Origin: Crossiella equi
GTDB taxonomy: Bacteria; Actinomycetota; Actinomycetes; Mycobacteriales; Pseudonocardiaceae
Length of the DNA: 64,000 nt
NCBI RefSeq assembly: GCF_017876755.1
Contig: NZ_JAGIOO010000001.1
Span: forward strand, 2,852,001-2,916,000
Direction of reading: 5' to 3'
In this document: one piece after another, positions 4,747 to 31,954 of the stretch
Position numbering within the stretch: the first letter of the stretch is position 1
Layout: each line of letters begins with the position of its first letter
The notes under the pieces: generated by a model
What the model saw: the letters and a program-made list of their open reading frames with translations, nothing else
Told to the model about the DNA's origin: nothing
Databases searched by the model: none
Program-made: the position numbers and the translations under genes

Positions 4747-4904
4747 GGCCAACACGACGTACGAACTCGGCCAACACGCCCGAAGGCCTCAACCCCCGTC
4801 GGCGTGTTTGCCACCCCCGTACCTCGTGTTGGCCGGTTTCGTACCTCGTGTTGGCCGAGCCCGTACCCCGTGTTGGCCAGCCTCGTACCCCGTCTTGGCT
4901 GGCC
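4747..4904. repeat. 22-bp tandem/inverted repeat array A
   Basis: Array of 22-bp units between two convergent genes. Two units read forward (GGCCAACACGACGTAC and a degenerate copy). They are followed by about five in reverse orientation (GTACCTCGTGTTGGCC plus six variable bases), with exact 22-bp spacing over at least three copies. The first reverse copy is a GCGTGTTTGCC variant that is also present in array D. The inverted halves can pair in RNA. A period of 22 is not a multiple of three, so it is not a coding repeat. The array fills the gap between the Pro-rich gene and rluD, where a bidirectional terminator would be expected. Confidence 0.85.
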
Positions 4905-4917
4905 CGGGCGGGTCAGG

Positions 4918-5850
4918 TCACCAGCTGTCGGCGCGCAGCGAGTCCAGTGCCTCCTGGAGGTCCTGCGGGTACTCGCTGGTGAACTCCACCCACTCCTCGT
5001 GCGCCGGGTGGTGGAAGCCCAGCGTGCGCGCGTGCAGCCACTGCCGGGTGAGCTTGAGCTTCTTGGCCAGCACCGGGTCCGCGCCGTAGGTCAGGTCGCC
5101 CACGCACGGGTGCTTGAGCGCGGAGAAGTGCACGCGGATCTGGTGCGTGCGGCCGGTCTCCAGCTTCACGTCCACCAGGGACGCCGCCCGGAAGGCCTCC
5201 TGCACCTCGTAGTGCGTGACGCTCGGCTTGCCCGTGGCGACCACGGCGAACTTGTAGTCCTGCCGCGGGTGCCGGTCGATCGGGGCGTCGATCGTGCCCC
5301 GGCTCGGGTCCGGGTGGCCCTGCACCAGCGCGTGGTAGCGCTTCTCCACGGTGCGCTCCTTGAACGCCCGCTTGAGCACCGAGTACGCGTGCTCGCTCTT
5401 GGCCACCACCATCACGCCGGTGGTGCCGACGTCCAGCCGGTGCACCACGCCCTGGCGCTCGGCCGCGCCGCTGGTGGCGATCTGGATGCCCGCCGCCGCC
5501 AGGCCCGCGACCACGGTCGGGCCGGTCCAGCCCGGGCTCGGGTGCACGGCCACACCCACCGGCTTGTCGATCACCACGACGTCGTTGTCCTCGTAGATCA
5601 CCTCGAGGCCGTCGACCGGGGCGGCCAGCACCGGCACCGGGCGCTCGGGCTCGGGCAGCGTGACCTCCAGCCAGGAGCCCGCGACCAGGCGGTCGGACTT
5701 GCCCGCCGGGGAGCCGTCGAGCAGCACCCCGCCGTTCTCGGCCAGCCCGGCGGCCACCGTGCGCGACAGGCCGAGCAGCTTGGACAGCCCGGCGTCCACA
5801 CGCATGCCGTCCAGGCCGTCCGGGACGGGGAGGGTTCTCTGCTCGGTCAT
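4918..5850 (-). CDS. rluD: RluA/RluD-family 23S rRNA pseudouridine synthase
   Basis: Converts uridine to pseudouridine in rRNA. The 310-residue protein has an N-terminal S4-like RNA-binding segment ([20 protein letters not shown], residues about 15-60). It is followed by the RluA catalytic domain with the [15 protein letters not shown] motif, whose Asp is the catalytic residue. Downstream motifs RYHALVQG and [10 protein letters not shown] are typical. I start at the ATG at 5850 (MTEQRTLP); it overlaps lspA by 4 bp (ATGA), a pairing conserved in actinobacteria. The exact uridines modified cannot be read from sequence. Confidence 0.93.
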
Positions 5851-6428
5851 GCGGTCTCCTCCGCCGTCGCCTCTGTTCGAGGTGCCTGTTCCGTCTGTGC
5901 CGCCCGTGCCGTCCGCTGGGTGCGCGTGCCGTCGTAGTCGATGCCCAGCAGTGCCAGCAGGACAAGCAGCACACCACCGGACACGATGGCGGCGTCGGCG
6001 ATGTTGAACACCGGCCACACGCTGCCGTCCGGGGCGAACAGGGACAGGAAGTCCACCACGTGGCCCTCGCCGAAGCCCGGCGGTCGGGTCAGCCGGTCGG
6101 TGAGGTTACCGAGCGCGCCGCCCAGCACCAAGCCGACGCCCAGTGCCCAGCCGCGTGAGCGCAGCCGGGCGGCGAAGACGAGGATGGTCAGCACGACCAC
6201 CGCGGTGATCACGGTGAGCAACCAGGTCTGCCCCGGCAGCAGCGAGAACGCCGCGCCCGGGTTGTGCAGCAGCACCAGGTAGAGGCTGCCGCCCGCCACG
6301 CGCACCGGCGCCTGCCCGGCGAGGTGGGCGACCGCGAGGTCCTTGGTCACCAGGTCGGCCGCGAACACCAGCACCGCCGCCAGGGCGAACGGCACCAGGC
6401 GCCGCGAGGGCAGGTGGGGGTCACTCAC
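5847..6428 (-). CDS. lspA: Lipoprotein signal peptidase II
   Basis: Membrane aspartyl peptidase that removes the signal peptide from prolipoproteins after lipid attachment; several lipoproteins in this window (2109, 45197, 47785, 53120) are likely clients. The 193-residue protein has four hydrophobic helices. The two catalytic aspartates lie in GNLTDR (Asp111) and FNIADAAI (Asp145), and the conserved HNPGAAFSL is also present. The C-terminal tail of about 35 residues is charged and longer than in E. coli. It overlaps rluD by 4 bp. Confidence 0.96.
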
Positions 6429-6450
6429 CTGCCCATTGTCCAGTACGGCC

Positions 6451-7809
6451 TCAGGCGTTGATGAACGGCGGCAGCGGGCGCGGGTCGTCCACCGGCGCGT
6501 ACCGCCCGTCGACGAGCTCGTAGCGCCAGCGCGGCCCCTCGGTGACCAGCGAGCGCAGCGCGGCCAGCACGCGGTCCACGTGCTCGGCGGTGCTGCCCAG
6601 GCCCAGGCTCACGCGCAGCGCGCGGGTGTCGTCGGACCCGGCCTGGCCGAGCAGGCGGCGGGTGGCGATGTGCGCGCAGAAGGCGCCATCCCGCACGCCG
6701 ATGCCGTGCTCGGCCGACAGCGCGGCGGCCAGCAGCCCGCAGTCCTGGCCGTCGACGGTGAAGCTGACCACCCCGACCCGCTCGTGCGCCTCACCGAAGA
6801 TCGACAGCTCCCGGAGCCCGGGGATCGCGGCCAGGCCCGCGCGCAGGCGGTTGAACAGCTCGGTCTCGTGCGCGATGACCGCGTCCCAGCCGTGCTGGGT
6901 GATGCTCTGGCAGGCGGTGGCGAAGGCGTGCACGCCCACCACGTTCGGCGAACCGGCCTCGTGCCGCTCCGGCGCCGGGGCCCAGCCCACGCCGAGGTGG
7001 TCGCCCCAGTCCACGACGTGCTTGGTGGCGCCGCCGCCGACCAGGTACGGGGCGGCCTGGTGCAGCCAGTCCGCGCGGCCGACGAGCGCGCCGCTGCCGA
7101 ACGGGGCGTACAGCTTGTGGCCGGAGAGCACCACGTAGTCCACGTCCAGTGCCTGGATGTCCACCGGGCGGTGCGGGGCCAGCTGCGCGGCGTCCAGCAC
7201 GACCCGCGCGCCGTGCCGGCGGGCCACGGCGGCGAGCTCCTCGACCGGCCACAGCTCGCCGGTCACGTTGGAGGCGCCGGTCAGCACGACCAGGCGGGCA
7301 CCCTCGGGGCAGCCGCGCAGGGCCTCCGCCAGCGCGCGCACGGCCAGCCGCGGGGTCTCCGGGGTGGCGATCCGGGTGACGTTCGGGCCACGCCAGGGCA
7401 GCAGCGCGGCGTGGTGGTCGGTGTCGAAGGTGACCACGCTGGTACCGCGCGGCACGCTGCGGGCCAGCAGGTTCAGCGCGTCGGTGCTGTTGCGGGTGAA
7501 CACCACGACGTCCTTGGCGTGCGCCCCGACGAAGCGCCGCAGCACCTCGCGGGCCTGCTCGTAGACCTTGGTGCAGACCTGGGAGTTGAACCCGGCGCCG
7601 CGGTGCACGCTGGCGTAGTAGGGCAGCAGCTCGTCCACGGCGTCGCGCACCGAGGCCAGACACGGCGCGGAGGCGGCGTGGTCGAGGTTGGCGTAGGTCA
7701 CGCGCTCCCCGGTGACCAGCGGCACCGTGGTGCTCGCGCCGACCACGGCGGGCACGGCGGCGGTGCTGGCGAGGTTGGCCTGGCCGGGGATGTAGGCGAG
7801 CGTGGACAT
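6451..7809 (-). CDS. Class V aminotransferase (cysteine desulfurase-like), under SAM-IV riboswitch
   Basis: PLP-dependent fold-type I enzyme, 452 residues, of the class V / NifS-like group. Visible features are 'ANLDHAASAPCL' at the substrate end, 'FTRNSTDALNLLA' for phosphate binding, 'VVLDAAQLAPH' with the PLP Asp, and the Schiff-base lysine in LSGHKLYAPFGSG. The likely chemistry is sulfur mobilisation from cysteine or a related lyase/transaminase reaction; the exact substrate is unknown. I start at the ATG at 7809, preceded by GGAGGAGTC, and not at upstream in-frame codons that lie in the RNA leader. The SAM-IV riboswitch just upstream implies a role in sulfur or methionine metabolism. Confidence 0.88.
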   Translation of the reverse strand: MSTLAYIPGQANLASTAAVPAVVGASTTVPLVTGERVTYANLDHAASAPCLASVRDAVDELLPYYASVHRGAGFNSQVCTKVYEQAREVLRRFVGAHAKDVVVFTRNSTDALNLLARSVPRGTSVVTFDTDHHAALLPWRGPNVTRIATPETPRLAVRALAEALRGCPEGARLVVLTGASNVTGELWPVEELAAVARRHGARVVLDAAQLAPHRPVDIQALDVDYVVLSGHKLYAPFGSGALVGRADWLHQAAPYLVGGGATKHVVDWGDHLGVGWAPAPERHEAGSPNVVGVHAFATACQSITQHGWDAVIAHETELFNRLRAGLAAIPGLRELSIFGEAHERVGVVSFTVDGQDCGLLAAALSAEHGIGVRDGAFCAHIATRRLLGQAGSDDTRALRVSLGLGSTAEHVDRVLAALRSLVTEGPRWRYELVDGRYAPVDDPRPLPPFINA

Positions 7810-7875
7810 GCAGACTCCTCCGGGGGTCCTGTTCGGACCTGCTGGAGGCCCGCGCTTGCCCGCCACGCTGCGTGA

Positions 7876-7966
7876 CGGACCAGGTCCTCACCCGGAGCAC
7901 CCCACCGCGGTAGGAGGGTTGCCGACCAGCGAGCCGGGGCTTGACGCTGGCACTCATGACCTTGGC
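7876..7966 (-). promoter_or_regulatory. SAM-IV riboswitch
   Basis: The minus strand reads AGGTCATGAGTGCCAGCGTC, then AAGCCCCGGC, GGCAACCCTCC, ACCGCGGTGGGGTGCTCCGG and GTGAGGACCT. This matches, as I recall it, the conserved core of the actinobacterial SAM-IV class. The closing stem pairs AGGTC (7962-7958) with GACCT (7886-7882). It ends about 70 nt before the class V aminotransferase start, so S-adenosylmethionine would be expected to repress that gene. Confidence 0.88.
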
Positions 7967-8068
7967 TTCGAGGCTAGCCGACGAGTGACGCTCTGGAGAA
8001 GACCCCGTCCAGATTCCGGGAAGCCGCAGGACGGGATGGACCTGCGGCTACGCAGCGTGACCCGGGTC

Positions 8069-8752
8069 TCACCAGGGCAGCGGCTGCCCGTGCCGGAAGA
8101 ACCCGCCCGTGGGACCGCCGTCCGGCAGGCGCACCGCCCACGCCACGCTGGCCACGCCCTCGGCGAGGGGCCCGCCGCCGGGGCCGCCCATGTCGGTGGC
8201 GATCCAGCCGGGGCAGACCGCGTTGACCAGGAACCGCGCGGAGGTCAGCTCGTGGGCGAGGGTCTTGGTGAGCATGTTCAGCGCGGCCTTGCTCACCGAG
8301 TAGCCGGGGCTGTCCACCGCGTACTCGCTGTGGAAGGACCCGGACTCGCTGGAGACGTTGACGATCCGGGGGTGCGCGCTGCGGCGCAGCAGCGGCAGCA
8401 GGGCCTGGGTGACCTGCCAGACGCCGAACAGGTTGGTGCCCAGGGTGTCCCGGACGGTGTCCAGGTCGGCGGTGACGGCCTGGACGTCCGGGTCGTAGTT
8501 GATGGCGGCGTTGTTGACCAGCACGTCCAGGTGCCCGTACTCCGCGCGCAGCTGTTCGGCGAGGGCGGCGGCCGAGGCCGGGTCGGTGACGTCGAGGGTC
8601 CGGATGTCGGCGGGCACGCCGTCCAGGGCCGCGCGGAGGGCGTCAGGGCGGCGGCCGGTGGCCACCACCCGGTCCCCGTCCTGCGCGAGCGAACGCGCGA
8701 GCCCCAGGCCGATGCCGCGGTTGGCACCGGTGATCAGCACGATGCGGGACAT
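8069..8752 (-). CDS. SDR-family NAD(P)-dependent oxidoreductase
   Basis: Short-chain dehydrogenase/reductase of 227 residues. The Rossmann fold shows TGANRGIGLG at residues 7-16, the NNAA motif (LVNNAAINYD), a Ser in NVSSESGS and the YSVSK catalytic Tyr-Lys pair. The cofactor loop (VVATGRRPDAL) with Arg residues after beta-2 favours NADPH. The family is certain; the substrate is not predictable. It stands between the antiporter and the riboswitch leader on the same strand, with a 27-bp gap to the antiporter stop. Confidence 0.9.
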   Translation of the reverse strand: MSRIVLITGANRGIGLGLARSLAQDGDRVVATGRRPDALRAALDGVPADIRTLDVTDPASAAALAEQLRAEYGHLDVLVNNAAINYDPDVQAVTADLDTVRDTLGTNLFGVWQVTQALLPLLRRSAHPRIVNVSSESGSFHSEYAVDSPGYSVSKAALNMLTKTLAHELTSARFLVNAVCPGWIATDMGGPGGGPLAEGVASVAWAVRLPDGGPTGGFFRHGQPLPW

Positions 8753-8779
8753 CGGTCCATTGTGCCGGCGGACCCCGCC

Positions 8780-10264
8780 CTAGGAGTCCAACCCGCGTTC
8801 CCCGCGCCAACGGGCATAACGGCCTGCCCGGTCGACCGCCCGGATGCGCTTCTCCGCCTCGTCGCGGGCCTGCTCGGTGGTGACCACGAGCAGCTGGTCG
8901 TCGAACTGCAACCGGGTCACCGGCTGCGGGGTGAAACCCTTGCCCCCGCGCACGACCAGGCTGACCGTGGCGCCCGCGGGCAGGCGCAGCTCGGAGACGT
9001 AGACGCCGTGCAGCTTGGAGCCGTTGGGGATGCGGATCTGGAGCAGCTCGGCGCCGAGCTCGTCCAGCGGGCCCGCGTCGACCTGGACCTCCTGCATCTC
9101 GCCGCGCCGCACCAGGCCGAGCCAGCGGGCCAGCACCGGCAGCGTGCCGCCCTGGATCAGGGTGAGCACCACGACCAGCACGAAGACCACGTCGACCAGG
9201 GTCTGCGCGCCGGGTAACCCGTTGGTCACCGGGATCATGGCCAGCACGATCGGCACCGCGCCGCGCAGCCCGGACCAGGACAGGAAGACCTGTTCGCGCC
9301 AGGGCACGCGGAAGGGCGTGGCCGACAGCAGCACCGACAGCGGGCGGGCCACGAGCACCAGCACCGCGCCGGCCACCAGGGCGGGGAAGAGCACGTGCGG
9401 CAGGCGCGAGGGCGAGGCGTACAGGCCGAGCAGGACGAACAGGCCGATCTGGGCGAGCCAGCCCAGGCCCTCGGCGAAGGAGAGGGTGTCCGAGCGGTGC
9501 GGCAGCCGGGCGTTGCCCAGCACCAGGCCCGCCACGTAGGCCGAGAGCAGCCCGGCGCCGTGCACGCCCTGCGCGGCGGCGTAGGCGAGCACGCACACGC
9601 CGACAGTGGCCAGCGGGTACAGGCCGGTGGCGGGCAGGGCCGCCCGGCGCAGCGCGGCCGCGCCCAGCCAGCCGAGCACGATGCCCACGACGGCCCCCAT
9701 GACGAGCTCGTAGAGCATCAGCGCGGGCGTGAACCAGGTGAACGGGTCACTGCTGGCGAGCAGCACCACGGCCAGGTACACGGGCGCGTCGTTGAGGCCG
9801 GACTCCAGCTCCAGCGCACCGACCAGGCGCTTGCTGACCCCGACCCCGCGCAGCACGCTGAACACGGCGGCCGCGTCGGTGGAGGAGAGCACCGCGCCCC
9901 ACAGCAACGCGGTGCGCCACTCCAGGCCGAGGATGAGGTGCAGCAGCCCACCCACGGCGAAGATGCTCACCGCGACGGCCACAGTGGACAGAAGGATGCC
10001 AGGCCCGAGTGCGGGTTTCACGGCCGACCACCGCGTGGTCAACCCGCCCTCGGCCAGGATCAGCACCAGCGCCGCGATGCCCAGCGACTGCGTGAGCCCG
10101 GCATCGGAGAACTGGATCCCGAGCCCGGACTCCCCGAGCAGGAGCCCAATACCCAGGTACAGCAAGAGAGACGGCAGACCGAGCTTGACGGACACGCGCA
10201 CGGCTAGAACCGCCACCAGGAGCACCCCGGCACCGATCCCGAGCACGGTCGTCAGGTCGGTCAT
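8780..10264 (-). CDS. Potassium/proton antiporter, CPA1 family with C-terminal TrkA-C domain
   Basis: Cation/proton antiporter of 494 residues with about twelve hydrophobic helices and the conserved 'GAVLSSTDAAAVFSVL' and 'LELESGLNDAPVY' segments, which carry the acidic transport residues. The C-terminal 110 residues (LGAELLQIRIPNGSKLHGV and onward) form a TrkA-C/RCK-C regulatory domain as in CvrA/NhaP2 proteins. The likely role is K+ or Na+ export coupled to proton entry. The ATG at 10264 follows a CCTGGAGGC ribosome site. A CACACT/AGTGTG inverted repeat lies just upstream. Confidence 0.9.
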   Translation of the reverse strand: MTDLTTVLGIGAGVLLVAVLAVRVSVKLGLPSLLLYLGIGLLLGESGLGIQFSDAGLTQSLGIAALVLILAEGGLTTRWSAVKPALGPGILLSTVAVAVSIFAVGGLLHLILGLEWRTALLWGAVLSSTDAAAVFSVLRGVGVSKRLVGALELESGLNDAPVYLAVVLLASSDPFTWFTPALMLYELVMGAVVGIVLGWLGAAALRRAALPATGLYPLATVGVCVLAYAAAQGVHGAGLLSAYVAGLVLGNARLPHRSDTLSFAEGLGWLAQIGLFVLLGLYASPSRLPHVLFPALVAGAVLVLVARPLSVLLSATPFRVPWREQVFLSWSGLRGAVPIVLAMIPVTNGLPGAQTLVDVVFVLVVVLTLIQGGTLPVLARWLGLVRRGEMQEVQVDAGPLDELGAELLQIRIPNGSKLHGVYVSELRLPAGATVSLVVRGGKGFTPQPVTRLQFDDQLLVVTTEQARDEAEKRIRAVDRAGRYARWRGERGLDS

Positions 10265-10281
10265 AGGGCGCCTCCAGGAAT

Positions 10282-10301
10282 CACACTAAGGGTCAAGTGT
10301 G
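10282..10301. promoter_or_regulatory. Inverted repeat upstream of the antiporter (possible operator)
   Basis: CACACT, eight bases, AGTGTG forms a 6-bp inverted repeat 18-37 bp upstream of the antiporter start. The TetR-family gene at 10423-11019 is transcribed toward it and could be the ligand, but this is only positional inference. The rest of the 10265-10422 gap shows nothing else. Confidence 0.35.
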
Positions 10302-17146: not shown

Positions 17147-17881
17147 TTAGGGCGAGGTTAGCCGCCGTTCGCCGAGCAACGAGGTTCCGACACGCACACA
17201 GGTCGAACCGTGGTCAATCGCCGCTTCCAAGTCCCCGCTCATGCCCGCGGACACCATGTCGGCACCGGAATACTCGCTTCTAAGACGCCTGGACACCTCA
17301 GCGAGTTCCCCGAAAGCGGCATGAGGATTACTACCTAGGGGTGCGATCGCCATCACACCCTTCAAGGTCAGTTCACCCGATTGAGTGATCTTCCCCACAA
17401 GGTCAGCGAATTGATCTTGCGGAACCCCGCCCCGGTGTGGGTCACCGTCGAGGCTCACCTGTGCCAGGACCGCCAAGGGGTGGTCGCGCTCCCCCGCCAG
17501 GCGTGCCCTGGCCACCGCCCCGGCGAGGGCTTCGGCGAGCCGGACGCTGTCCACCGTCTGGACGACGTCCGCCCACTTGATCACGTGGCGTGCCTTGTTG
17601 CGCTGCAGTCGCCCGATCAGGTGCCAACGGGGCCGGATACCCAGAGCGGCGAGCTCCTCGGCCTTCGCGGCGGCCTCCTGCTCCCGCGACTCGCCGAACT
17701 CGGTGAGCCCGAGCTCGTGCAGCAGGGCCACGTCGGAGGCGGGATGGTTCTTGGTGATGGCCAGCAGCTGGACCTCGTCCCGGTCCCGCCCGGCGGCCCG
17801 GCAGGCGGCGGCGATGCGCTCCTCGATCCCGGCCAGGTTCTCGGCCAGCTCGGCGCGGCGCGCCTCGGTGCCCGCGCTCAT
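17147..17881 (-). CDS. YggS/PROSC-family PLP homeostasis protein
   Basis: Single-domain PLP-binding protein of 244 residues with a TIM-barrel fold of the alanine racemase N-terminal type. The PLP lysine is Lys44 in LLAITKNHPASD. Other motifs are FGESREQEA, WHLIGRLQRNKA and 'VSAGMSGDLEAAIDHGSTCVRVGTSLLG' split over the C-terminus. The family buffers pyridoxal phosphate and has no known catalytic turnover. The ATG at 17881 overlaps pgeF by 4 bp. Its place between pgeF and sepF is conserved in Gram-positive division clusters. Confidence 0.94.
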   Translation of the reverse strand: MSAGTEARRAELAENLAGIEERIAAACRAAGRDRDEVQLLAITKNHPASDVALLHELGLTEFGESREQEAAAKAEELAALGIRPRWHLIGRLQRNKARHVIKWADVVQTVDSVRLAEALAGAVARARLAGERDHPLAVLAQVSLDGDPHRGGVPQDQFADLVGKITQSGELTLKGVMAIAPLGSNPHAAFGELAEVSRRLRSEYSGADMVSAGMSGDLEAAIDHGSTCVRVGTSLLGERRLTSP

Positions 17882-18582
17882 GCCTCGACCCACACCACGG
17901 AGGCCAGCCGCCCGGTCTTGCCGTCGCGCCGGTGGCTGAACAGGCTCTTGTCCTCGACGGTGCAGCGCGGGTCGAGCCCGATCTTGGCCACCCCGGAGTC
18001 GGCGAGCTGCTGCCAGAGCCCGGCCCGCAGGTCCAGCCCGGGCGTGCCCTTGCGGGTGCGGCAGGCCGACCCGGGCAGGTGCGCCTCCACGTCGTCCTGC
18101 ATGGCCTGGGGCACCTCGTAGCACTCCCCGCACACGGACGGCCCGAGCAGCACCTCCACCCGGTCCACGCGCGCCCCGGCGGCGTCCATGGCCCGGAGGG
18201 CGGCGGGCACCACGCCCACGCGCGCCCCGACCCGCCCGGCGTGCACGGCGGCCACCACACCGGCCTCGGGGTCGCCGAGCAGCACGGGCACGCAGTCGGC
18301 GGTGAGCACGGCCAGGGCCAGCCCGGCCTGCGCGGTCACCAGGGCGTCGGTGGCCTCGGCGGGCCCGTCCAGGGGCCCGGCCACGGTGGTCACGGTGCGC
18401 CCGTGCACCTGCTCCATCCACACCAGGCGCTCCCCGCCCAGCCCGACCCCCCCGGCCAGCCGCTCCCGGTTGGCCCGCACGGCCCCAGGGTCGTCGCCGA
18501 CGTGGTCACCGAGGTTGAACGACTCGTAGGGCGCGGCCGAACCGCCCCCGGCCCGGGTGGTGATGACACGACGAATGCGCAC
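17878..18582 (-). CDS. pgeF: Peptidoglycan editing factor PgeF (YfiH/laccase-domain)
   Basis: Cytosolic enzyme of 234 residues. In E. coli, PgeF hydrolyses UDP-MurNAc-L-Ser so that only correct precursors enter the wall. Metal-binding residues are recognisable in TADCVPVLLGD, AAVHAGRVGA and GPSVCGECYEVP. The second motif reads HAGRVG rather than the usual HAGWRG, a mild change next to the conserved His. The start is the GTG at 18582. It follows ftsZ and is translationally coupled to yggS. Confidence 0.92.
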   Translation of the reverse strand: MRIRRVITTRAGGGSAAPYESFNLGDHVGDDPGAVRANRERLAGGVGLGGERLVWMEQVHGRTVTTVAGPLDGPAEATDALVTAQAGLALAVLTADCVPVLLGDPEAGVVAAVHAGRVGARVGVVPAALRAMDAAGARVDRVEVLLGPSVCGECYEVPQAMQDDVEAHLPGSACRTRKGTPGLDLRAGLWQQLADSGVAKIGLDPRCTVEDKSLFSHRRDGKTGRLASVVWVEA

Positions 18583-18626: not shown

Positions 18627-18682
18627 GCCCAACACGAGGTACGGGAACGGCCAACACGAGGTACCGAAGTGGCCAACACGGC
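18627..18682. repeat. 22-bp tandem repeat array B (single orientation)
   Basis: Three head-to-tail 22-bp units in the 192-bp gap between ftsZ and pgeF: GCCCAACACGAGGTAC, GGCCAACACGAGGTAC and a degenerate GGCCAACACGGCGG, each with its variable tail. Unlike arrays A, C and D there are no inverted copies, so no long stem can form within this array alone. On the sense (minus) strand it lies downstream of the ftsZ stop. Confidence 0.8.
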
Positions 18683-18774
18683 GGGCGGGGGACGGTCGAC
18701 GGGGGTCGGAGACCTGCTGGGACGACAGCGGCCCGGCTCCGCGTGGGCGGGGCCGGGCCGTTGTGGCTTGTGCG

Positions 18775-20112
18775 TCAGCGGCGCATGAAGGGCGGGACGT
18801 CGACCTCGTCGTCGTCCGGCTCGTCGGTGACCGGGACCGAGCGCGGCGGCAGGCCGCCGTTGAGGCCCGAGCTGACCGGCGGCAGGCCGTGCATGCCCGT
18901 GCGCGGCGGCAGCGGGTTCATCGGGTTCGGTGCCGGGGCCGGGGGCTGCGGGGCCACCGGCTGCTGCACGACCGGCTGCGGGGCCGGTGCGGGCGCCGGT
19001 GCGGGCTGCTGCTGGTAGGTGACCGGCGGCTGCGGCGGGGCGGCCTGCGGCTGCTCCTCCGCCACCGGGGCCGGTGCCGGGGGTGGCTGGACCTGGCCCG
19101 CGGTGGCCGGGGCCACCGGGGTGCGCGAGGTGACCGGTGCCGGTTCCAGCTTCTTGTGCGTCGGCGTTCCGCCGTCGAAGCCCGCCGCGATCACCGTGAC
19201 CCGGACCTCGTCGCCGAGCGAGTCGTCGATGACCGTACCGAAGATGATGTTGGCCTCGGGGTGGGCCGCCTCCTGGACCAGGCTGGCGGCCTCGTTGATC
19301 TCGAACAGGCCCAGGTCGGAGCCGCCCGCGATCGAGAGCAACACGCCGTGCGCGCCCTCCATGGAGGCCTCCAGCAGCGGCGAGTTGATCGCCTTGCCCG
19401 CCGCCTGGACCGCCCGGCCCTCGCCCCTGGCCGAGCCGATGCCCATGAGGGCACTGCCCGCGCCGGACATCACGCTCTTGACGTCGGCGAAGTCCAGGTT
19501 GATCAGACCGGGGGTCGTGATCAGGTCGGTGATGCCCTGGACACCGGAGAGCAGGACCTCGTCGGCCGAGCGGAACGCGTCCATCAGGCTGACCCCGATG
19601 TCGCCCAGCTGCAGCAGCCGGTCGTTCGGGATGACGATGAGCGTGTCGCACTCGTTGCGCAGCGCCTGGATGCCGTCCTCGGCCTGCTTGGCCCGGCGCT
19701 TGCCCTCGAAGGAGAACGGTCGCGTGACCACACCGATGGTCAGCGCGCCCAGCTTGCGGGCGATCGAGGCCACCACGGGCGCGCCACCGGTACCCGTGCC
19801 GCCGCCTTCACCGGCGGTCACGAACACCATGTCGGCGCCCTTGATGACCTCCTCGATCTCCTCGCGGTGGTCTTCCGCGGCCTTCTGGCCGACCTCGGGG
19901 TTGGCGCCCGCGCCGAGACCCCTGGTCAGCTCGCGGCCGATGTCGAGCTTCACGTCGGCGTCGGACATCAGCAGCGCCTGGGCGTCGGTGTTCACCGCGA
20001 TGAACTCCACGCCCTTGAGGCCAACCTCGATCATGCGGTTGACCGCGTTGACGCCGCCGCCGCCAATACCGACGACCTTGATCACCGCGAGATAGTTGTG
20101 CGGGGGCGTCAT
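18775..20112 (-). CDS. ftsZ: Cell division GTPase FtsZ
   Basis: Tubulin-like GTPase that polymerises into the Z-ring. The 445-residue protein has [15 protein letters not shown] at its N-terminus, the tubulin signature [10 protein letters not shown] at about residue 105, and the T7 loop [18 protein letters not shown]. Beyond residue 320 there is an unusually long Pro/Gln-rich linker (about 100 residues, many PQPP and PAPAP blocks). It ends in the C-terminal peptide [11 protein letters not shown], which binds SepF and FtsW. The ATG at 20112 has a GGAAGG ribosome site. It has its own leader of about 245 bp. Confidence 0.97.
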
Positions 20113-21642: not shown

Positions 21643-23072
21643 CCCCGGCTGTCCCCGCGCTCGGCGAGCTCGGCCAGGATCTCCGGACCGAGGCTGGTGA
21701 CATCGCCCGCGCCCATGGTGATGACCAGGTCGTCCGCGCGCACCAGGCCCGCGACCAGCTTGGGCACCTGGCTGAAGGAGGACTCGTAGCGCACCCGGCC
21801 CTCGGGCAGCGGCACGTGCTCGGCCACCAGTGCGCCGGTCACGCCGGGCACCGGCTCCTCGCGGGCGCCGTAGACGTCGAGCACCACGACCTCGTCGGCC
21901 AGGGCGAGTGCCTGGGCGAACTCCGCGCAGAAGTTCTGGGTGCGGGAGTACAGGTGCGGCTGGAAGACCACGACCAGGCGGCCGGTGCCACCGACCACCG
22001 GGCGGGCGGCGCGCAGCTGCGCGTCGACCTCGGTGGGGTGGTGGGCGTAGTCGTCGTAGACCCGCACCCCGGCTTCCTGGCCCTTGAACTCGAAGCGCCG
22101 CCGGACCCCGCCGAAGGCCGCCAGGCCCTCGCGCAGGCCGTCCAGGGGCGCGCCCAGCTCGAGCCCGGCCAGCAGTGCGGCGACCGCGTTGCCCGCCATG
22201 TGCTCGCCCGGCACGGCCACGTTCAGGGTGACCTTCTCGCCACGCAGGTCCAGGTCGACCTCGCCACCGGCCGCGGTGGGCCGGTGCGCCAGGATGCGCG
22301 CGTGGGCGCCCTCGGCGCGGCCGTAGCGGAGCACCCGCGTGCCGGTGGCCTCGGCGCGGTCGGCCAGCGCGGCCGAGCCGAGGTCGTCGGCGCAGGCGAT
22401 GAGCACGCCGCCGGGCGCGATGCGGCCGACGAACAGGTCGAAGACCGCGACGTAGGCCTCGACCGTGCCGTGGTGGTCAAGGTGGTCGGCCTCGACGTTG
22501 GTGACCACCGCGACGGACGGGTCGAAGACCAGGAACGAGCCGTCGGACTCGTCGGCCTCGGCCACGAAGCTGCCGCCGCTGCCGTGGTGGGCGTTGGCGC
22601 CGGACTCGTTGAGGTCGCCGCCGATGGCGAAGGACGGGTCGAGGCGGCAGTGCTGCAGGGCCACGGTGAGCATCGACGTGGTCGAGGTCTTGCCGTGGGT
22701 GCCCGCGATGCACGCGACGCGGTGCCCGGCCATCAGCGCGCCCAGCGCCTCGGCGCGGCGCAGCACGGTGATGCCGCGCTCCTGGGCCGCGACCAGCTCC
22801 GGGTTGTCCTTCTTGATCGCGGTGGACACCACGACCGCGGTCGGGCCGCCGTCGAGGGCGTCCAGGGCCTCGGCGCTGTGCCCCAGGGTGATCTTGGCGC
22901 CCTGGGCGCGCAGCGCGAGCACGGTCGGCGAGTCCTTGGCGTCCGTGCCGGAGACCTGGGCGCCGCGGGCGAGCAGGATGCGGGCGATGCCGCTCATGCC
23001 CGCGCCGCCGATGCCCACCAGGTGGGTGCGGGCAAGGCGCGGGTCCAGCGGGGTGACCTCGGGGGCGCTCAT
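21639..23072 (-). CDS. murC: UDP-N-acetylmuramate--L-alanine ligase MurC
   Basis: Adds L-Ala to UDP-MurNAc in the first step of stem-peptide synthesis. 477 residues with the N-terminal UDP-binding [18 protein letters not shown], the ATP loop [11 protein letters not shown], the central motif [12 protein letters not shown] and the C-terminal [11 protein letters not shown]. All Mur ligase residues appear intact. It overlaps both murG (4 bp) and ftsQ (4 bp), which points to coupled translation. Confidence 0.97.
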
Positions 23073-24175
23073 CGGCGGACCTGGTCCAGGACCATGCGGG
23101 CCAGCACCATGTCGGCCTCGCGGTGGCCACCGGCGGTCTGCGCGGCGGCGCCCATCTTGGCCAGGCGCTCGCCGTCGCGCAGGATCGGCAGGACCTGGTC
23201 GACGATGCGGTGCGCGGACAGCTCGGCGTCCGGGATGATCAGGCCGCCGCCCGCGTCCACGACGGGGTTGGCGTTGAGGGCCTGCTCGCCGTTGCCGTGC
23301 GGCAGCGGCACGTACATCGCGGGCAGCCCGAGCGCGGAGACCTCGGCCACGGTCATCGCGCCGGAGCGGCAGAGCACCGCGTCGGCGGCGGCGTAGGCCA
23401 GGTCCATGCGCTCCAGGTAGGGCACCGGCACGTAGGCGGGCGCACCGGGCACCTGCTGGACGGCGACGGTGTTCTTGGGGCCGTGGGCGTGCAGCACGCC
23501 GATCCCGGCCTGGCCCAGCTGCGGGGCCGCGGCGGACACGGCGTCGTTGATCGAGCGCGCGCCCTGGGAGCCGCCGACCACGAGCAGGACGGGGGCGGTG
23601 GGGTGCAGGCCGAAGAACTGGCGGGCCTGCGCGCGCAGGGCGGCGCGGTCCAGGGTGGTGATGGAGTGCCGCAGCGGGATGCCGATGACCTTGGCCCCGG
23701 ACAGGCCGGACCCGGGCACGGCGGCGGCGACGGCGGCGGCGAACTTGGCGCCGACCTTGTTGGCCAGGCCGGCGCGGGCGTTGGCCTCGTGCACCACGAT
23801 CGGCACGCGCCCGCGCGCGGCCAGGTAGGCGGGCAGGGCCACGTAGCCGCCGAAGCCGACCACCACGTCGGCACCGTGCTTGGCGAAGACCTCGCGGGTG
23901 CGGCGCACCGAGTCGCGCACCTTCAGGGGCAGGCGCAGCAGCTCCGGGGTGGGCTTGCGGGGCATGGGCACCGGCGGGATGAGCTCCAGCGGGTAACCGC
24001 GGGCGGGCACGATCTTGTTCTCCAGGCCGCGCTCGGTGCCGAGTGCCACGACGCGGACGTCGGGCCGGATCCGGCGCACCGCGTCGGCCAGGGCCAGCGC
24101 GGGCTCGATGTGCCCGGCGGTGCCGCCTCCGGCGACGACGACACAGGGTCCACTTCGGACGGTTTCACCAGACAC
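23069..24175 (-). CDS. murG: Lipid II synthase MurG
   Basis: Membrane-associated GT28 glycosyltransferase that adds GlcNAc to lipid I. The 368-residue form has the G-loops [19 protein letters not shown] and [14 protein letters not shown]. The C-terminal UDP-GlcNAc site reads [12 protein letters not shown], then [24 protein letters not shown] and '[17 protein letters not shown]'. I start at the GTG at 24175 because a GGAGGA ribosome site lies 9 bp upstream; ATG codons further upstream lack one. Unlike most dcw clusters it is separated from ftsW by 576 bp. Confidence 0.95.
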
Positions 24176-24317
24176 TGCGGAAGTCCTCCAGCCCGGGAGC
24201 CCAGGCATCGTCATGGGGAACACGGATGGCCGCGAGGGTAACAAAATCGCGACGTGACACTGCGTGCGCCCGGAAGGCTACGGAGCGCTGTGTTGGATTG
24301 GCGCGCTCCGCGCGCGG

Positions 24318-24412
24318 GTGTTTTTCGCTCCTGAGTGACCTCGCCACGTCCTCGCCACGCGCGACGCGAGCGTCGGCGTGGCGAGGCCGCGGCAAGGTCA
24401 CGCGAAAAACAC
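24318..24412. other. Long stem-loop upstream of murG
   Basis: Nested inverted repeats: GTGTTTTTCGC (24318) with GCGAAAAACAC (24412), GTGACCT (24335-24341) with AGGTCAC (24395-24401), CCTCGCCACGC (24350-24360) with GCGTGGCGAGG (24376-24386) and CGACG with CGTCG around a CGAG tetraloop. The structure covers 95 bp and is close to fully paired apart from one bulge. It is 143 bp upstream of murG and could be a terminator for ftsW, a processing signal or a small mobile element relic. The 24413-24545 stretch holds further short GC-rich hairpins only. Confidence 0.75.
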
Positions 24413-24545
24413 AACGGCCAGGTGGTGGCGGGGGTGTCGCCTTCGGCGCCACACCACGCCCGCACCCCGGCCCGCATCGCCGCCCGGGGTGCCCCTCGTG
24501 GAACCGCCCGGTCCCCCGGACCAGGCCACCGCGGCCCACCGGGCC

Positions 24546-24744
24546 GGCCAACACGGGATACGGGATCAGCCAACACGAGGTACGAAACCGGCCAACACGA
24601 AGTGCGGGACGGGCCAACACGACGTACGGAACCGGCCAACACGGCTCGTGTCGGCCGGTCCCGTCGGCCGTGTTGGCCGGTTCGGTACCTCATGTTGGCC
24701 CGTTTCGTACCTCGTGTTGGCCGTCTGTGTACCTCGTGTTGGCC
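24546..24744. repeat. 22-bp tandem/inverted repeat array C
   Basis: Five forward units (GGCCAACACG + GGATAC, GAGGTAC, GAAGTGC, GACGTAC and a short last copy) are followed by four reverse units (GCCGTGTTGGCC, GTACCTCATGTTGGCC, GTACCTCGTGTTGGCC twice), all on a 22-bp grid. The arms are complementary, so a transcript of either strand could form a stem of about 85 bp around a short GC-rich loop. Several differences between paired units give G-U pairs. The array ends 8 bp from the ftsW stop codon. Confidence 0.88.
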
Positions 24745-27554: not shown

Positions 27555-28645
27555 CCGCCCGCACTCAGCCATTCGCTGTAGAACAGACCCAGACCGATGA
27601 GGCAGCAGATGCCGCCCATCAGCCAGAATCTGATGATCACCGTGGTTTCCGCCCACCCGGCCAGCTCGAAGTGGTGGTGGAACGGCGCCATTCTGAACAG
27701 TCTTCGTTTGGTCGTGCGGAAGACCAGGATCTGGAGGCTCACCGACAGGGTCTCCACCACGAACAGACCGGCCACCACGATCATCAGCAGCTCGGTGCGG
27801 GTGGTGATGGACAGACCGGCGACCAGGCCACCGAGGGCCAGCGAGCCGGTGTCGCCCATGAAGATCTTGGCCGGGGCCGCGTTCCACCAGAGGAAGCCGA
27901 CGCAGCCCGCCATCGCCGCCGCCGCCAGGACCGCGAGGTCGAGGGGGTCGCGCACGTAGTAGCAGGCGGGGTTGAGGCGCTCGGAGCAGTCGAGGCGGAA
28001 CTGCCAGAAGGAGATGACGACGTAGGTGCCGAGCACCATCGCCGAGGTGCCCGCCGCGAGGCCGTCCAGGCCGTCGGTGAGGTTCACCGCGTTGGACCAG
28101 GCCGCGACCAGCAGGTTGCAGAAGATGATGAAGCCGATGGTGCCGAAGGAGACGATCGAGATGTCCCGCACGAACGACAGGTTCACCGAGGCCGGGGTCA
28201 GCTTGTAGTCGCTGGCGTCCGGGAACTGGAGTGCCAGGTAGGCGAACACGGTCGCGGTGAGCACCTGGCCGACGATCTTCGCGGTACCGGACAGGCCCAG
28301 GTTGCGGGCCTTGCGGATCTTGATGAAGTCGTCGAGGAAGCCGACCAGGCCCAGGGCCGTGGTCAGGAACAGCACCAGCATGCCGGAGGCGGTCGGACCG
28401 GTCTGCTCGTTCGGGCCGCGCGTCAGGTAGACGAACAGGTGGCTGGTGCCGTAACCGGCCCAGATGGCCAGCAGGATGGCGATACCGCCCATGGTGGGGG
28501 TGCCGCGCTTGGCCTTGTGGGCCTGGGGGCCCTCCTCGCGGATCTCCTGCCCGAAGCCCTGCCGGGAGAAGATCTTGATGAGGTAGGGGGTGAGCAGGAT
28601 GGAGACCATCAACGCGACGGCCGCCGAGATGAGGATGCCCTTCAC
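27551..28645 (-). CDS. mraY: Phospho-MurNAc-pentapeptide translocase MraY
   Basis: Transfers phospho-MurNAc-pentapeptide to undecaprenyl phosphate, giving lipid I. It is a 364-residue, ten-helix membrane enzyme. Catalytic motifs are [40 protein letters not shown] and the FHHHFE loop near the C-terminus. The GTG start at 28645 overlaps the murF stop by 4 bp. Confidence 0.97.
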
Positions 28646-30117
28646 TGGGCGTCACCCCCGGCGAGCAAGGCGTCGGCGACCCGCCACAGGGCGGCCGCCT
28701 TGGAGGCCTTCACCAGCACGACGTCCCCTGGCCGCACCTGTTCGCGCAGCAGCGCGATGGCGGCGTCGACGTCCGGCACGAGAACGGACTCCTCTCCCCA
28801 AGACCCTTCGAGGTACGCGCCCTGGTGCATCGCCGCGGCCTGGTCGCCGACGACGACGAGCCTGCTGACGTCCAGGCGGACGGCGTAGCGGCCGATCGCG
28901 TCGTGGGCGGCGATGCTGTCCTCGCCCAGCTCGGCCATCACGCCGAGCACGGCCCAGCTGCGGCGGCGCGGTTCCGTGCGGCTCATGGCGGCCAGGGTCT
29001 TCAGCGCGGCGCGCACCGACTCCGGGTTGGCGTTGTACGAATCGTTGACCACCGTGACGCCGTCGTCGCGGGTGGTGACCTCCATGCGGCGGGCGGAGAC
29101 CCGTCGCGCCGAGGACAGCCGCTGGGCGACCTCCTCGGGTGTCGCGCCCAGCTCCACGGCGACCGCCGCGGCGGCCAGCGCGTTGGACACGTGGTGCGCC
29201 CCGTGCAGGGCGAGCCTGACCTCCGCGTCCCCGGCAGGGGTGACGAGGCGGAAGGTGGCCCGTGCCTGGTCGTCGAGCTCGACGTCCTCGGCCCGCACCG
29301 ATGCCTTCGGGTCCTGCCCGAAGAAGACGATCTTGGCCTTGCTGCGCGCGGCCATCGCCGAGACCAGCGGGTCGTCGGCGTTGAGGACCGCGACCCCGCC
29401 CTCCTCCGCGCTGGGCAGGGACTCCGGCAGCTCGCCCTTGGTCTGGGCGACCGCCTCCTGCGAGCCGAACTCGCCGAGGTGCGCGGTGCCCACGTTGATC
29501 ACCACGCCGATGCGCGGCGGGGCGGTGCGGCAGAGCTGGCCGATGTGGCCGACCCCCCGGGCGGACAGCTCCAGCACCAGGAACCTGGTGGCCTCCTCGG
29601 CGCGGAGCACGGTCCACGGGTGGCCGAGCTCGTTGTTGAACGAGCCGGGCGGCGCGATCGTGGGGCCCATCGGCTCCAGCACCTGGGCGATGAGGTCCTT
29701 GGTGGAGGTCTTGCCGGAGGAGCCGGTGATGCCGACGACCGCGAGCCCGGCCGGGGCCAGGGTGTCCACGGTGAGCCGGGCGAGCTTGCCCAGGGCGGCC
29801 AGCACGGCGGCGCCGGAGCCGTCGGTGTCGCCGGTGAGGGCGACCGAGCGGCGGTTGGCCTCGCTGACCGGCGGCACGATCACCGCGGGCGCGTCGACCT
29901 CGCGGGCGGCCAGCACACCGGCGGCACCCGCCTCGATCGCGGCGGCGGCGAAGTCGTGCCCGTCCACGCGCTCCCCGGGCAGGGCCAGGAACAGCCCGCC
30001 CGGGGTCAGCTCGCGCGAGTCGAACTCGACGGTGCCGGTGACCACGGGCGAGCCGTCGGTGTTGTGCAGGCGCCCGCCGACCGCCTCGGCGATCTCGGCG
30101 AGGCTGAGGTGGATCAT
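28642..30117 (-). CDS. murF: UDP-MurNAc-tripeptide--D-alanyl-D-alanine ligase MurF
   Basis: Completes the pentapeptide precursor by adding D-Ala-D-Ala. 491 residues with the N-terminal substrate domain ([20 protein letters not shown]), the ATP loop [41 protein letters not shown] and [17 protein letters not shown]. The ATG at 30117 overlaps murE by 4 bp. All key Mur ligase motifs are present. Confidence 0.96.
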
Positions 30118-31661
30118 CGTGCCTCCAGGCTTGCGTCGATGGCCTCGGCGAGCACCTGGCGGTCGTCGAAGGGGTGGACCACCCCGTTGACCTCCTGGCC
30201 CGTCTCGTGGCCCTTGCCCGCCACGACCACCACGTCGCCGGGGCGGGCGCGGCGCACGGCCTCGCGGATGGCCTCGCCCCGGTCACCGACCTCGATGACC
30301 TCGCCGCGTTCGCCCTCTGGCACGGCGAGCGCACCGGCGAGCATGGCGGCGCGGATGGCGGCCGGGTCCTCGCTGCGGGGGTTGTCGTCGGTGACGACGG
30401 TGAGCTCGGCGCGCCGGGTGGCGGCCTCGCCCATGAGCGGGCGCTTGGCGCTGTCGCGGTCGCCGCCGCAGCCCAGGACCACCAGGACACGGCCCCGGCC
30501 CGCCTGCTCGCGCACGGAGTCCAGGACGGCGGCCACCGCGCCCGGCTTGTGCGAGTAGTCGACGACGGCGGTGAAGTCCTGGCCGCGGACCACGCGCTCC
30601 ATGCGGCCGGGCACGTCCACGGCGGACAGACCCTCGATGATCGCGGAGTCCTCGACGCCCGCGGCGTGCAGGCAGGCGGCGGCGAGCAGGGCGTTGGCGA
30701 CGTTGAAGTCACCGGGCAGCCGGATGGCCAGCCTCAGCTCGATGCCCTCGGGCCCGAGCGCGCGGAAGCGCTGGATGCCGGTGGGCTCGGCGGTGATGTC
30801 CACCGCGCGCCAGGTGGCGTCCCCGGTGAGCGAGACGGTGGCGGTGCCCTCGCCGACGAGGCGGCGGCCCCACTCGTTGTCGACCACGACCACGTGCCTG
30901 TCCGCGCGACCGTCGAACAGCTTGGCCTTGGCGGCGAAGTAGTCCTCCATGTCGGCGTGGAAGTCCAGGTGGTCCTGGGACAGGTTGGTGAAGGCGCCGA
31001 CGGCGAAGTACGACCCGGCGACCCGGCCGAGGGAGAGCGCGTGGCTGGAGACCTCCATGGCCACGTCGGTGACGCCGCGCTCGAGCATGAGCGCGAACAG
31101 GGCCTGCAGGTCGGGCGCCTCGGGCGTGGTGAACGAGCTGTCCAGCCGCTCCCCGGCGATCACGGTGGCCACCGTGCCGATGAGCCCGGTGGTGCGGCCC
31201 GCGGCGCGCAGCCCGGACTCGACCAGCGTGCTGACGGTGGTCTTCCCGGAGGTCCCGGTGATCCCGATGATCGACAGCCGGTCGGAGGGGTTGCCGTAGA
31301 TCCGGGCGGCCAGGGTGCCGAGCACCCCGCGCGGGTCCGCGTGCACCAGGACGGGCAGCCCGGTCCCGCGGACCTCGGCCAGCTCGGCCCCGGCGGGGTC
31401 GGTGAGGATGGCGGCGGCCCCGTTGGCGACGGCCTGTGCGGAGAACTTCGCGCCGTGCACCCGGGCACCGGGCAGCCCGGCGAACAGGTCTCCGGGCCGG
31501 ACCTGCTGGGCACGCAGCGTGGCACCGGTGACGGCGGCCGCGGCATGCTCACGACCGTTGTCACCAGCCAGGACGGCACCCACGAGACCGGCGAGGACAT
31601 CCAGTCGGACCGGCTCGGTCACGGACGGGCGAGGCGGGGCAGTTGCGACCACTGATGGCAC
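30114..31661 (-). CDS. murE: UDP-MurNAc-tripeptide synthetase MurE (meso-DAP adding)
   Basis: Adds the third stem-peptide residue. The ATP loop is GITGTSGKTTVSTLVE; the C-terminal TDDNPRSEDP carries the DNPR signature of enzymes that add meso-diaminopimelate, in agreement with dapF at 39917. I choose the GTG at 31661 (VPSVVATAPP; 515 residues), because the longer frame runs into repeat array D with no protein-like sequence. No clear ribosome site is visible, so the start is less certain. It is the first dcw gene here: ftsI, which normally precedes it, is absent. Confidence 0.93.
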   Translation of the reverse strand: MPSVVATAPPRPSVTEPVRLDVLAGLVGAVLAGDNGREHAAAAVTGATLRAQQVRPGDLFAGLPGARVHGAKFSAQAVANGAAAILTDPAGAELAEVRGTGLPVLVHADPRGVLGTLAARIYGNPSDRLSIIGITGTSGKTTVSTLVESGLRAAGRTTGLIGTVATVIAGERLDSSFTTPEAPDLQALFALMLERGVTDVAMEVSSHALSLGRVAGSYFAVGAFTNLSQDHLDFHADMEDYFAAKAKLFDGRADRHVVVVDNEWGRRLVGEGTATVSLTGDATWRAVDITAEPTGIQRFRALGPEGIELRLAIRLPGDFNVANALLAAACLHAAGVEDSAIIEGLSAVDVPGRMERVVRGQDFTAVVDYSHKPGAVAAVLDSVREQAGRGRVLVVLGCGGDRDSAKRPLMGEAATRRAELTVVTDDNPRSEDPAAIRAAMLAGALAVPEGERGEVIEVGDRGEAIREAVRRARPGDVVVVAGKGHETGQEVNGVVHPFDDRQVLAEAIDASLEAR

Positions 31662-31765
31662 AGCGCCGAAGGCTACCGGCGGGCGCTGGCTGGTCTTGCA
31701 CTGCCTCGTTGTGCTAGAGGCAGATCCGGGAGTTGACGACGCTCGGGACCACCGAGACCACCCCG

Positions 31766-31954
31766 GCGTGTTTGCCCACTTCGCACCTCGTGTTGGCCGA
31801 CTTCGTACATCGTGTTGGCCGGTCCCGCAGCCCGAGTGACCACTCCTGACGGCTTGGCCCGCCTGACCGCTCCGTTCCGGCCAACACGGCCCGCCAAGTC
31901 GGCCAACACGACGTGCGAAACCGGCCAACACGGCGTGCGGGGTCGGCCAACACG
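31766..31954. repeat. 22-bp tandem/inverted repeat array D
   Basis: Here the order is reversed. Three reverse units (GCGTGTTTGCCC variant, GCACCTCGTGTTGGCC, GTACATCGTGTTGGCC) come first. A unique stretch of about 57 bp follows, and then four forward units (GGCCAACACG followed by GCCCGC, ACGTGC, GCGTGC, CTTGAA). It lies between the divergent murE and ceramidase genes, about 105-290 bp upstream of murE. A terminator role is therefore less obvious than for array A. The remaining bases of the 31662-32083 gap show no gene. Confidence 0.86.

Follow-up and report, generated by a model that had tools for sequence, protein, structure and literature searches.

The window, a 64-kb stretch of the Crossiella equi genome, contains four arrays of short repeats that belong to a family built on a conserved 9-bp core, GGCCAACAC, spaced two turns of the DNA helix apart. 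The family occurs in four genera of the Pseudonocardiaceae, lies at the 3' ends of genes, shows helically phased distances between its opposite arms and is accompanied by a shortage of hairpins beside the arrays. We interpret the arrays, with a probability of about 0.4, as rows of binding sites for a putative DNA-binding protein that probably halts RNA polymerase and replaces hairpin terminators. Such a protein would bind cooperatively, and the bound arrays would stop transcription.

Four arrays in the window

All four arrays were found where the initial annotation had placed them, and it was right about their 22-bp spacing, which holds within every arm without exception. With core sites scored as matches to the 9-bp core at no more than 2 mismatches, the features are as follows:

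Array 1, 4747..4900, both strands: 2 cores on + (4747, 4769) and 5 on - (4804, 4826, 4848, 4870, 4892), the outermost - core with 2 mismatches, inner +/- distance 35; convergent, flanked by a + gene that lacks a Pfam match (3665-4735) and by a pseudouridine synthase gene (4918-5850, -), beginning 11 bp past the stop at 4735
Array 2, 18627..18679, + strand: a single arm of 3 cores (18627, 18649, 18671), following ftsZ (18775-20112, -) and preceding a laccase-domain gene (17878-18582, -)
ftsZ hairpin, 18725..18764, - strand: classical GC-rich hairpin that separates the ftsZ stop from array 2
Array 3, 24524..24744, both strands: 6 cores on + (24524, degenerate with 2 mismatches, then 24546, 24568, 24590, 24612, 24634) and 5 on - (24648, 24670, 24692, 24714, 24736), inner core distance 14; beginning 7 bp past the ftsW stop (24752, -) and ahead of murG (23069-24175, -)
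Array 4, 31768..31953, both strands: 3 cores on - (31768, 31790, 31812) and 4 on + (31879, 31901, 31923, 31945), inner -/+ distance 67; a divergent exception, flanked by genes for a Mur ligase (30114-31460, -) and a ceramidase (32084-34120, +)

Arrays 1, 3 and 4 have the inverted halves previously ascribed to three of the arrays, and array 2 is one-armed. Array 4 lies between two gene starts (Mur ligase, 31460, -; ceramidase, 32084, +) and counts as divergent if a weak 66-aa ORF at 31455-31655, without Pfam match, is spurious; two extra 2-mismatch matches beside it (31851 and 31940, both -) are off the grid. As proposed, the window arrays are intergenic, with no overlap with called genes, and this, together with the 22-bp period, makes coding unlikely. 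The family is likewise mostly intergenic, a few pairs elsewhere falling inside called genes (six entries); in one cluster count, 10 of 21 clusters of the Crossiella genome G003 and 2 of 24 of G002 consisted of pairs inside genes.

A conserved core on a two-turn grid

The repeat unit had been described as a 16-mer followed by six variable bases. Matches to the 16-mer are indeed present (19 in the window at no more than 3 mismatches, against 0.89 expected and a maximum of 4 in 100 shuffles; one of the 19, at 6562, falls outside the arrays), but only its first nine bases, the core, are truly conserved. The C. equi genome (G000, 9.44 Mb) holds 298 sites within 2 mismatches of the 16-mer, against 25 for the reversed control. 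Its core period is 22 bp, as initially reported for the window, but the period is 21 bp in other genera; across the four genera it is 21 or 22 bp, and the linkers differ. What defines the family is a 9-bp core set on a two-turn grid, rather than a 22-bp repeat peculiar to a single genus. Successive same-strand cores were 21 or 22 bp apart in 161 of 169 cases in G000, 18 of 21 in G001, 145 of 148 in G002, 51 of 54 in G003 and 143 of 172 in the genus g26, counts in which the array definition itself demands one 21/22 pair. A motif-free de novo test on 400 kb of G000 returned CCAACACG 36 times at lag 21/22 but never at any of four control lags.

The distribution of the family is patchy. Arrays are abundant in 8 of the 19 g26 genomes, and G004, also a Crossiella, has almost no matches to the core (3 and 2 pairs), so that the element has either disappeared there or changed. 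A survey of 396 genomes of the phylum gave only chance-level results, with 1-2 matches of the 21-bp pair in 15 genomes (that of C. equi included) and similar numbers for reversed controls. A viral origin was rejected, since the 22-bp pair had 0 exact matches in viral contigs. Rfam, run over window positions 1-36000 and hence all four arrays, returned no family at gathering score except SAM-IV at 7847-7961. In open-licence papers, the 16-mer was absent among the matches listed, the papers matching most strings holding only 10-mers, and nothing in titles and abstract beginnings was recognised as this repeat family. As far as tested, the repeat is thus neither confined to four loci nor a member of a known family, in agreement with the initial annotation, which had recognised no named repeat.

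The array downstream of ftsZ has counterparts in the corresponding gap of G001, G002 and G003, which makes four of five Crossiella genomes, and a collapsed remnant in G004; the gap holding array 3 has no array in G001-G004. Eight sites, one of them unreadable, were compared between species by eye. One has an array in G003, an array of another dialect in G001 and a classical terminator in G002; a terminator hairpin kept in three species precedes the array at a site in G003; and one site carries an array in G001 and none in G002 and G003. Several G001 entries scored as absent turned out to be arrays in another dialect.

Arrays behind genes and the shortage of hairpins

With genes called by a home-made hexamer caller, whose training shifts the class counts, arrays were found in 25 of 260 convergent gaps, 14 of 865 tandem gaps and 2 of 261 divergent gaps (Fisher test for convergent enrichment, 1.7e-6 against divergent and 3e-8 against tandem). 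Tandem and divergent gaps did not differ significantly in the 400-kb stretches (p 0.39). Convergent or unidirectional gaps, therefore, account for 39 of the 41 array-bearing gaps, window array 4 being an exception. The G000 loci were those around exact 16-mer matches among the matches listed (51 regions plus the window), and the four 400-kb stretches were picked for their synteny to the window and without regard to their arrays. The median distance from the stop codon to the first core was 11 bp across the 92 gene ends at which it did not exceed 60 bp (longer distances excluded; 6 of the 92 negative).

Among convergent gaps, a separate strong terminator-like hairpin was detected in 8 of the 26 that have an array and in 81 of the 112 that lack one (p 1.6e-4), a count in which one of the 26 array gaps is of type B, a form in the C. 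equi genome that carries 22-bp modules between terminal inverted repeats. The position at gene 3' ends and the shortage of hairpins beside arrays lend support to a role in termination, which had been listed among the possible functions. A polar barrier was rejected, as the orientation of the first unit is inconsistent (11 sense-first and 4 antisense-first in convergent gaps of G002; 5 and 16 in G003).

Arm spacing and the RNA hairpin alternative

In both arrangements, the distances that separate oppositely oriented arms fall on a comb of ~10.5 bp. After removal of similar centres, the +- distances (n=30 of 69) gave R 0.61 at 10.7 bp with a best period of 11.1, and the -+ distances (n=27 of 33) gave R 0.59 at 10.3 bp with a best period of 10.2; the jitter null reached the best value in 0 of 2000 and 1 of 2000 runs, respectively. 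From two further genera, five -+ distances (17, 17, 26, 38, 68) and one +- distance (23) fit the same comb, although the data are few. Phasing was absent from the controls, with R 0.11 for stop-to-core distances (n=86) and, for core pairs outside arrays, R 0.11 (n=33) and 0.18 (n=24). Against the comb, one of four decoy sets, in which equal distances recurred, reached R 0.52 (p 0.02, n=14). The arrays thus have the whole-turn spacing of helically phased arrays, also between arms, with +- and -+ phases matching one common face only to within 1-2.4 bp. Sites and arms that follow the DNA helix point to a protein, and the binding of a putative protein, another of the roles first suggested, gains support accordingly.

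The main rival dispenses with the protein: the transcribed inverted arms would fold into a long stem, serving two-sided termination or mRNA 3' protection, as proposed for REP/BIME. The location at gene 3' ends and the replacement of classical hairpins in convergent gaps are also consistent with this explanation. Most arrays (61 of 86) are bi-armed, and those of the window have strong predicted RNA folds (-78, -150 and -110 kcal/mol, against -13 for the one-armed array 2), so a hairpin could serve equally. An adjacent classical hairpin accompanies 8 of 25 arrays with one arm or a degenerate second arm and 9 of 61 bi-armed arrays (p 0.08), a hint that the inverted pair itself matters.

Nevertheless, compensatory pairing between arms, as would be looked for in an intrinsic terminator, showed no excess in G000 and G002. 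Cross-arm linker identity in type A arrays equalled that of shuffled partners in G000 (0.668 vs 0.666, 22 arrays, 894/2000) and G002 (0.721 vs 0.715, 27 arrays, 711/2000); it was slightly raised in G003 (0.731 vs 0.668, n=8, 104/2000 shuffles), where covariation had first been suspected by eye, and in g26 (0.571 vs 0.525, n=21, 244/2000 shuffles). An earlier count had included type B (about 14 of 43 by gap length), and the verdict was the same after a rerun without it. Arm lengths in G000 are uncorrelated (r -0.03, n=26), and a hairpin would require neither the ~10.5-bp comb of loop distances nor a core that is constant across four genera. The halves may well fold, as initially noted, but the hairpin as a selected feature is weakened by the unmatched linkers of G000 and G002, the uncorrelated arm lengths and the helix-following distances, which together favour protein-binding rows on one DNA face. 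We consider the hairpin explanation rather improbable.

Mobile DNA and passive expansion

Alternatively, the cores could be transposase or recombinase sites. The arrays would then be the ends, the remnants or the passengers of short non-autonomous elements whose survival is restricted to places behind genes. In G000, 22-bp modules do occur within an element that bears terminal inverted repeats (50 terminal repeats), some G002 and G221 arrays lie inside repeated blocks, and both the G001 array at a site empty in G002 and G003 and the patchy occurrence in g26 fit such an origin. Against it, Y1 (RAYT) transposase matches number 0 in G000, G003 and G004 (3 in G001, 1 in G002), no target duplication was seen by eye at the compared sites, and the ftsZ site is retained across the genus. 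Near-copies, counted as array pairs at least 90% alike over at least 90 bp, are scarce in G000 (4 of 561 pairs, 34 arrays) and G002 (17 of 1275 pairs, 51 arrays), and 4 such pairs were found among 10 arrays of G221. Type B resembles MITEs in its 22-bp modules between terminal inverted repeats, whereas the window arrays, which are type A, lack these terminal repeats, and the compared type A sites are those without visible duplication; type B was removed by motif strings, and the class labels mis-sort L088 (B) and L052 (A). Taken as a whole, an origin in mobile elements seems unlikely.

Passive expansion, also raised initially and taken here as tandem slippage at sites that tolerate it, is very improbable, since linkers within an array are little or no closer than those between arrays (mismatch 0.288 vs 0.323 in G000, 1/1000 permutations; 0.358 vs 0.410 in G210, 0/1000; a within-array excess at 34/1000 in G003 and 55/1000 in G221; none in G002, 0.281 vs 0.275, 751/1000), the core is constant while linkers vary, and the comb between arms disfavours slippage.

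Relation to known systems

REP/BIME elements are present in many extragenic copies between convergent and unidirectional genes, often as pairs of opposite orientation (PMC3733652). The Crossiella arrays resemble them in being multi-copy, extragenic, placed between convergent or unidirectional genes and often paired in inverted orientation. The GTAG or CGTC end tag given in PMC3733652 is absent from the array unit consensus. REP/BIME units are palindromes of 20-40 bp, whereas the core and the 22-mer consensus are non-palindromic and the units are direct tandem repeats on a two-turn grid. Membership in REP/BIME was, therefore, rejected: the arrays share the location in gene gaps and lack the palindrome, tag and RAYT features.

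In iterons and in tandem regulator boxes of the PhoB/PhoP type, with an 11- or 22-bp geometry, a protein reads direct repeats on one face of the DNA. The present arrays are likewise direct repeats on a helical grid, with a protein that is putative here, but they are dispersed behind genes (9 type A arrays in a 400-kb stretch) and not placed at an origin or at promoters. Intrinsic terminators of convergent genes are similar in location and folding ability; the arrays differ from them in their fixed core, strict 21/22-bp grid, helical phasing and one-armed versions.

Proposed mechanism and significance

Under the protein-binding interpretation, each protomer or dimer of a putative sequence-specific protein would read one core, with its neighbours two helical turns apart on one DNA face and the inverted arms joined so as to keep the shared face. 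The resulting nucleoprotein row, just past the stop codons, would most likely block RNA polymerase from both sides, as a roadblock or bidirectional terminator, and the arrays would thereby do the job of classical hairpin terminators. A more far-reaching version, which we regard as doubtful, is that a dedicated putative protein in phased rows forms a genome-wide bidirectional terminator or insulator replacing hairpins, with a binding code that drifts between species.

The usual interpretation of repeats scattered behind genes is that they are RNA hairpins or junk. Should RNA polymerase indeed be stopped by bound arrays, this family would represent protein-based transcription termination at genome scale in bacteria.

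The array family and its distribution

The initial annotation had described four arrays of a 22-bp unit in the window, and all four are present as described. The conserved 16-mer of that unit (≤3 mismatches) has 19 matches there against 0.89 expected, a number reached by none of 100 shuffles.

4747..4900: array 1
7847-7961, minus strand: SAM-IV riboswitch (Rfam)
18627..18679: array 2, behind ftsZ
24297-24469: another palindromic repeat, with GTGTTTTTCGC ends, adjoining array 3; it recurs in two further examined places of the genome (87% and 91% identity)
24524..24744: array 3
31768..31953: array 4

All four are of type A, in which an arm of units is followed by a spacer and an arm in the opposite orientation, in either order and at times with one arm only. 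Type B, an element of ~0.25–0.85 kb with terminal repeats near TTTTCGCCGTGGGTGTT, is left out of array counts except where stated.

In the whole Crossiella equi genome (G000, one contig of 9,440,186 bases), the 16-mer has 298 matches with ≤2 mismatches (reversed pattern, 25) and 235 with ≤1 (control, 1). In 400-kb stretches of G000 and two other Crossiella genomes (G002, G003), de novo counting returned the array core as the top 8-mer at lag 21 or 22; in a fourth, G001, the variant CGGCCAAC came first. Control lags gave 0 or 1 recurrences. The unit consensus is GGCCAACACGagGTaCGggnnC in G000, GGCCAACACgCCGTaCgAgAaC in G002 and GGCCAACACgccGTaCgAgttC in G003. Letters 1–9, the core, are nearly invariant among these, and letters 13, 14 and 16 (G, T, C) of Crossiella linkers are well conserved too.

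Core pairs (≤1 mismatch) were scanned in 297 genomes of the family. At 22 bp, they number 583 in G002, 274 in G000, 164 in G001 and, against 278 in G003, only 3 in G004, a draft assembly; 12 further genomes have 1–3 each. At 21 bp, at least one match occurs in 75 of the 297 (reversed control, 0–2): 8 of 19 genomes of genus g26 have 415, 224, 177, 57, 29, 25, 18 and 14, one genome each of genera g10 and g63 has 38 and 11 (controls 2 and 2), Crossiella has 139 (G002), 107 (G001), 44 (G003), 2 (G000) and 2 (G004), and the rest have 0–3. Across the phylum, 15 of 396 genomes, C. equi included, have 1–2 matches at 21 bp. The core and its two-turn spacing are therefore conserved, and the linker is strongly variable, as GGCGACACCGGC in g63 (L277) versus GAGGTACGGGATC in G000 illustrates. 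G001 and G002 share 97% protein identity and differ in core dialect at several sites, G001 using GGCCAACTC and TTGGCCCAA at sites common to both (L201-L220). No paper naming this family was found among the open-licence papers searched, or in passages of PMC12306157 and PMC3733652.

Position at gene ends

Based on our own gene calls for every neighbouring gene pair in four syntenic 400-kb stretches (58 arrays), arrays occupy 25 of 260 convergent, 14 of 865 tandem and 2 of 261 divergent gaps (convergent vs divergent, p=1.7e-6; convergent vs tandem, p=3e-8; tandem vs divergent, p=0.39). At chosen G000 loci, 34 arrays labelled type A comprise 13 convergent, 21 tandem and 0 divergent cases, counting window array 4, which would be divergent but for a weak ORF; of the array-less gaps of at least 30 bp at these loci, 116 lie between tandem, 77 between divergent and 23 between convergent genes. 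The 24 arrays of g10 and g63 are 15 tandem, 5 convergent, 2 inside called genes, 2 unclassified and 0 divergent. From stop codon to first core, the median is 11 bp (92 distances of ≤60 bp, six negative).

Strong short hairpins occur in 81 of 112 array-less convergent gaps (25–1500 bp), against 8 of 26 array-bearing ones (one of them type B) when sought outside the array (p=1.6e-4). With ≤60 bp outside the array the figure is 0/8, versus 18/27 array-less gaps of ≤60 bp; the background is 23 of 300 random 100-bp windows. Eight sites, one of them unreadable, were compared closely. In one case, G002 has a classical terminator where, at the orthologous site, G003 carries an array and G001 an array of another dialect; in another, three species share a terminator hairpin, with an array behind it in G003 only. 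Downstream of ftsZ, four Crossiella carry an array, preceded by a classical terminator in G001, G002 and the window, and G004 has a collapsed remnant. Arrays thus often, though not always, replace hairpins; another reading is that they were gained at places without a prior terminator. Gene-end position and the scarcity of other hairpins speak for a role in ending transcription.

Spacing between arms

If the sites are read on one DNA face, inter-arm distances should step by whole turns, not whole units. Filtering out arrays with similar centres retained 30 of 69 +- and 27 of 33 -+ cases. Among these, start-to-start distances are 13-14, 22-24, 30-35, 40-48, 55-58 and 70 for +-, and 17-18, 25-28, 36-38, 46-50, 56-58, 67-68, 73, 77, 79 and 83 for -+. 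Rayleigh R was 0.61 at 10.7 bp (best period 11.1) and 0.59 at 10.3 bp (best period 10.2), respectively, and a jitter null equalled the best value in 0 and 1 of 2000 trials. Window arrays 1, 3 and 4 lie on this comb (35, 14 and 67). The g10 and g63 loci, independent of the data that revealed it, gave -+ distances of 17, 17, 26, 38 and 68 (R 0.91 at 10.5, phase 5.9 vs 5.3) and a +- distance of 23. Controls gave R 0.11 (stop-to-core distances) and 0.11 and 0.18 (core pairs outside arrays). Among four decoy sets (n=6, 7, 8 and 14), the largest, with repeated equal distances, gave p=0.02 and the others 0.18–0.27. This geometry speaks for a putative DNA-binding protein. We tentatively propose, with a probability of about 0.4, that the arrays are bound by such a protein and end transcription.

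Alternative explanations

That RNA hairpins account for the arrays seems rather unlikely. Bi-armed arrays are the majority (61/86), and an extra hairpin stands beside 8 of 25 one-armed or loosely two-armed arrays versus 9 of 61 bi-armed ones (p=0.08). However, when opposite-arm linkers of type A arrays were compared in symmetric register with shuffled partners (2000 shuffles), they were no more alike in G000 (identity 0.668 vs 0.666; 22 arrays; 894 shuffles equal it) or G002 (0.721 vs 0.715; 27; 711); G003 (0.731 vs 0.668; 7; 104) and g26 (0.571 vs 0.525; 13; 244) show a weak excess. Nor do arm lengths of bi-armed arrays correlate in G000 (r=-0.03; 26/33 bi-armed); r is -0.24 in G001 (7/12), -0.26 in G002 (18/25) and 0.34 in G003 (10/17).

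An origin as mobile-element remnants is less probable still. Array pairs at least 90% alike over at least 90 bp number 17 among 51 G002 arrays, 4 among 34 in G000 and 4 among 10 in G221, another array-bearing genome; the G002 near-copies examined are parts of larger palindromic blocks. One compared site has an array in G001 and none in G002 or G003. Linker mismatch within and between arrays is 0.288/0.323 (G000), 0.281/0.275 (G002) and 0.316/0.354 (G003); linkers are little or no more similar within arrays than between them. The arrays therefore did not arise mainly by recent slippage.

Type B looks MITE-like and is palindromic, with 22-bp modules nested at its centre and inverted 30-bp tandem repeats inside its terminal repeats. 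Its terminal repeats occur at 50 sites in G000 (control, 3) and 1–2 in each of G001–G004 (controls, 0–3); 22 G000 loci carry label B, among them L045, L046, L056, L058 and L090. No transposase-bearing copy was noticed among G000 terminal-repeat pairs. IS-like sequence starting at CTAG is present in L065 and L085, and large non-coding multi-hairpin repeats lie between two arrays in convergent gaps (L174 4774-5679; G002:C1:3129774-3130679). REP membership of the arrays failed on three of the features tested, namely palindromic unit, GTAG/CGTC tag (PMC3733652) and own-genome RAYT.

Implications for Crossiella

The scarcity of core pairs in G004 points either to loss of the core or to use of another dialect. 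G004 offers a natural contrast for tracking down the putative binding protein.
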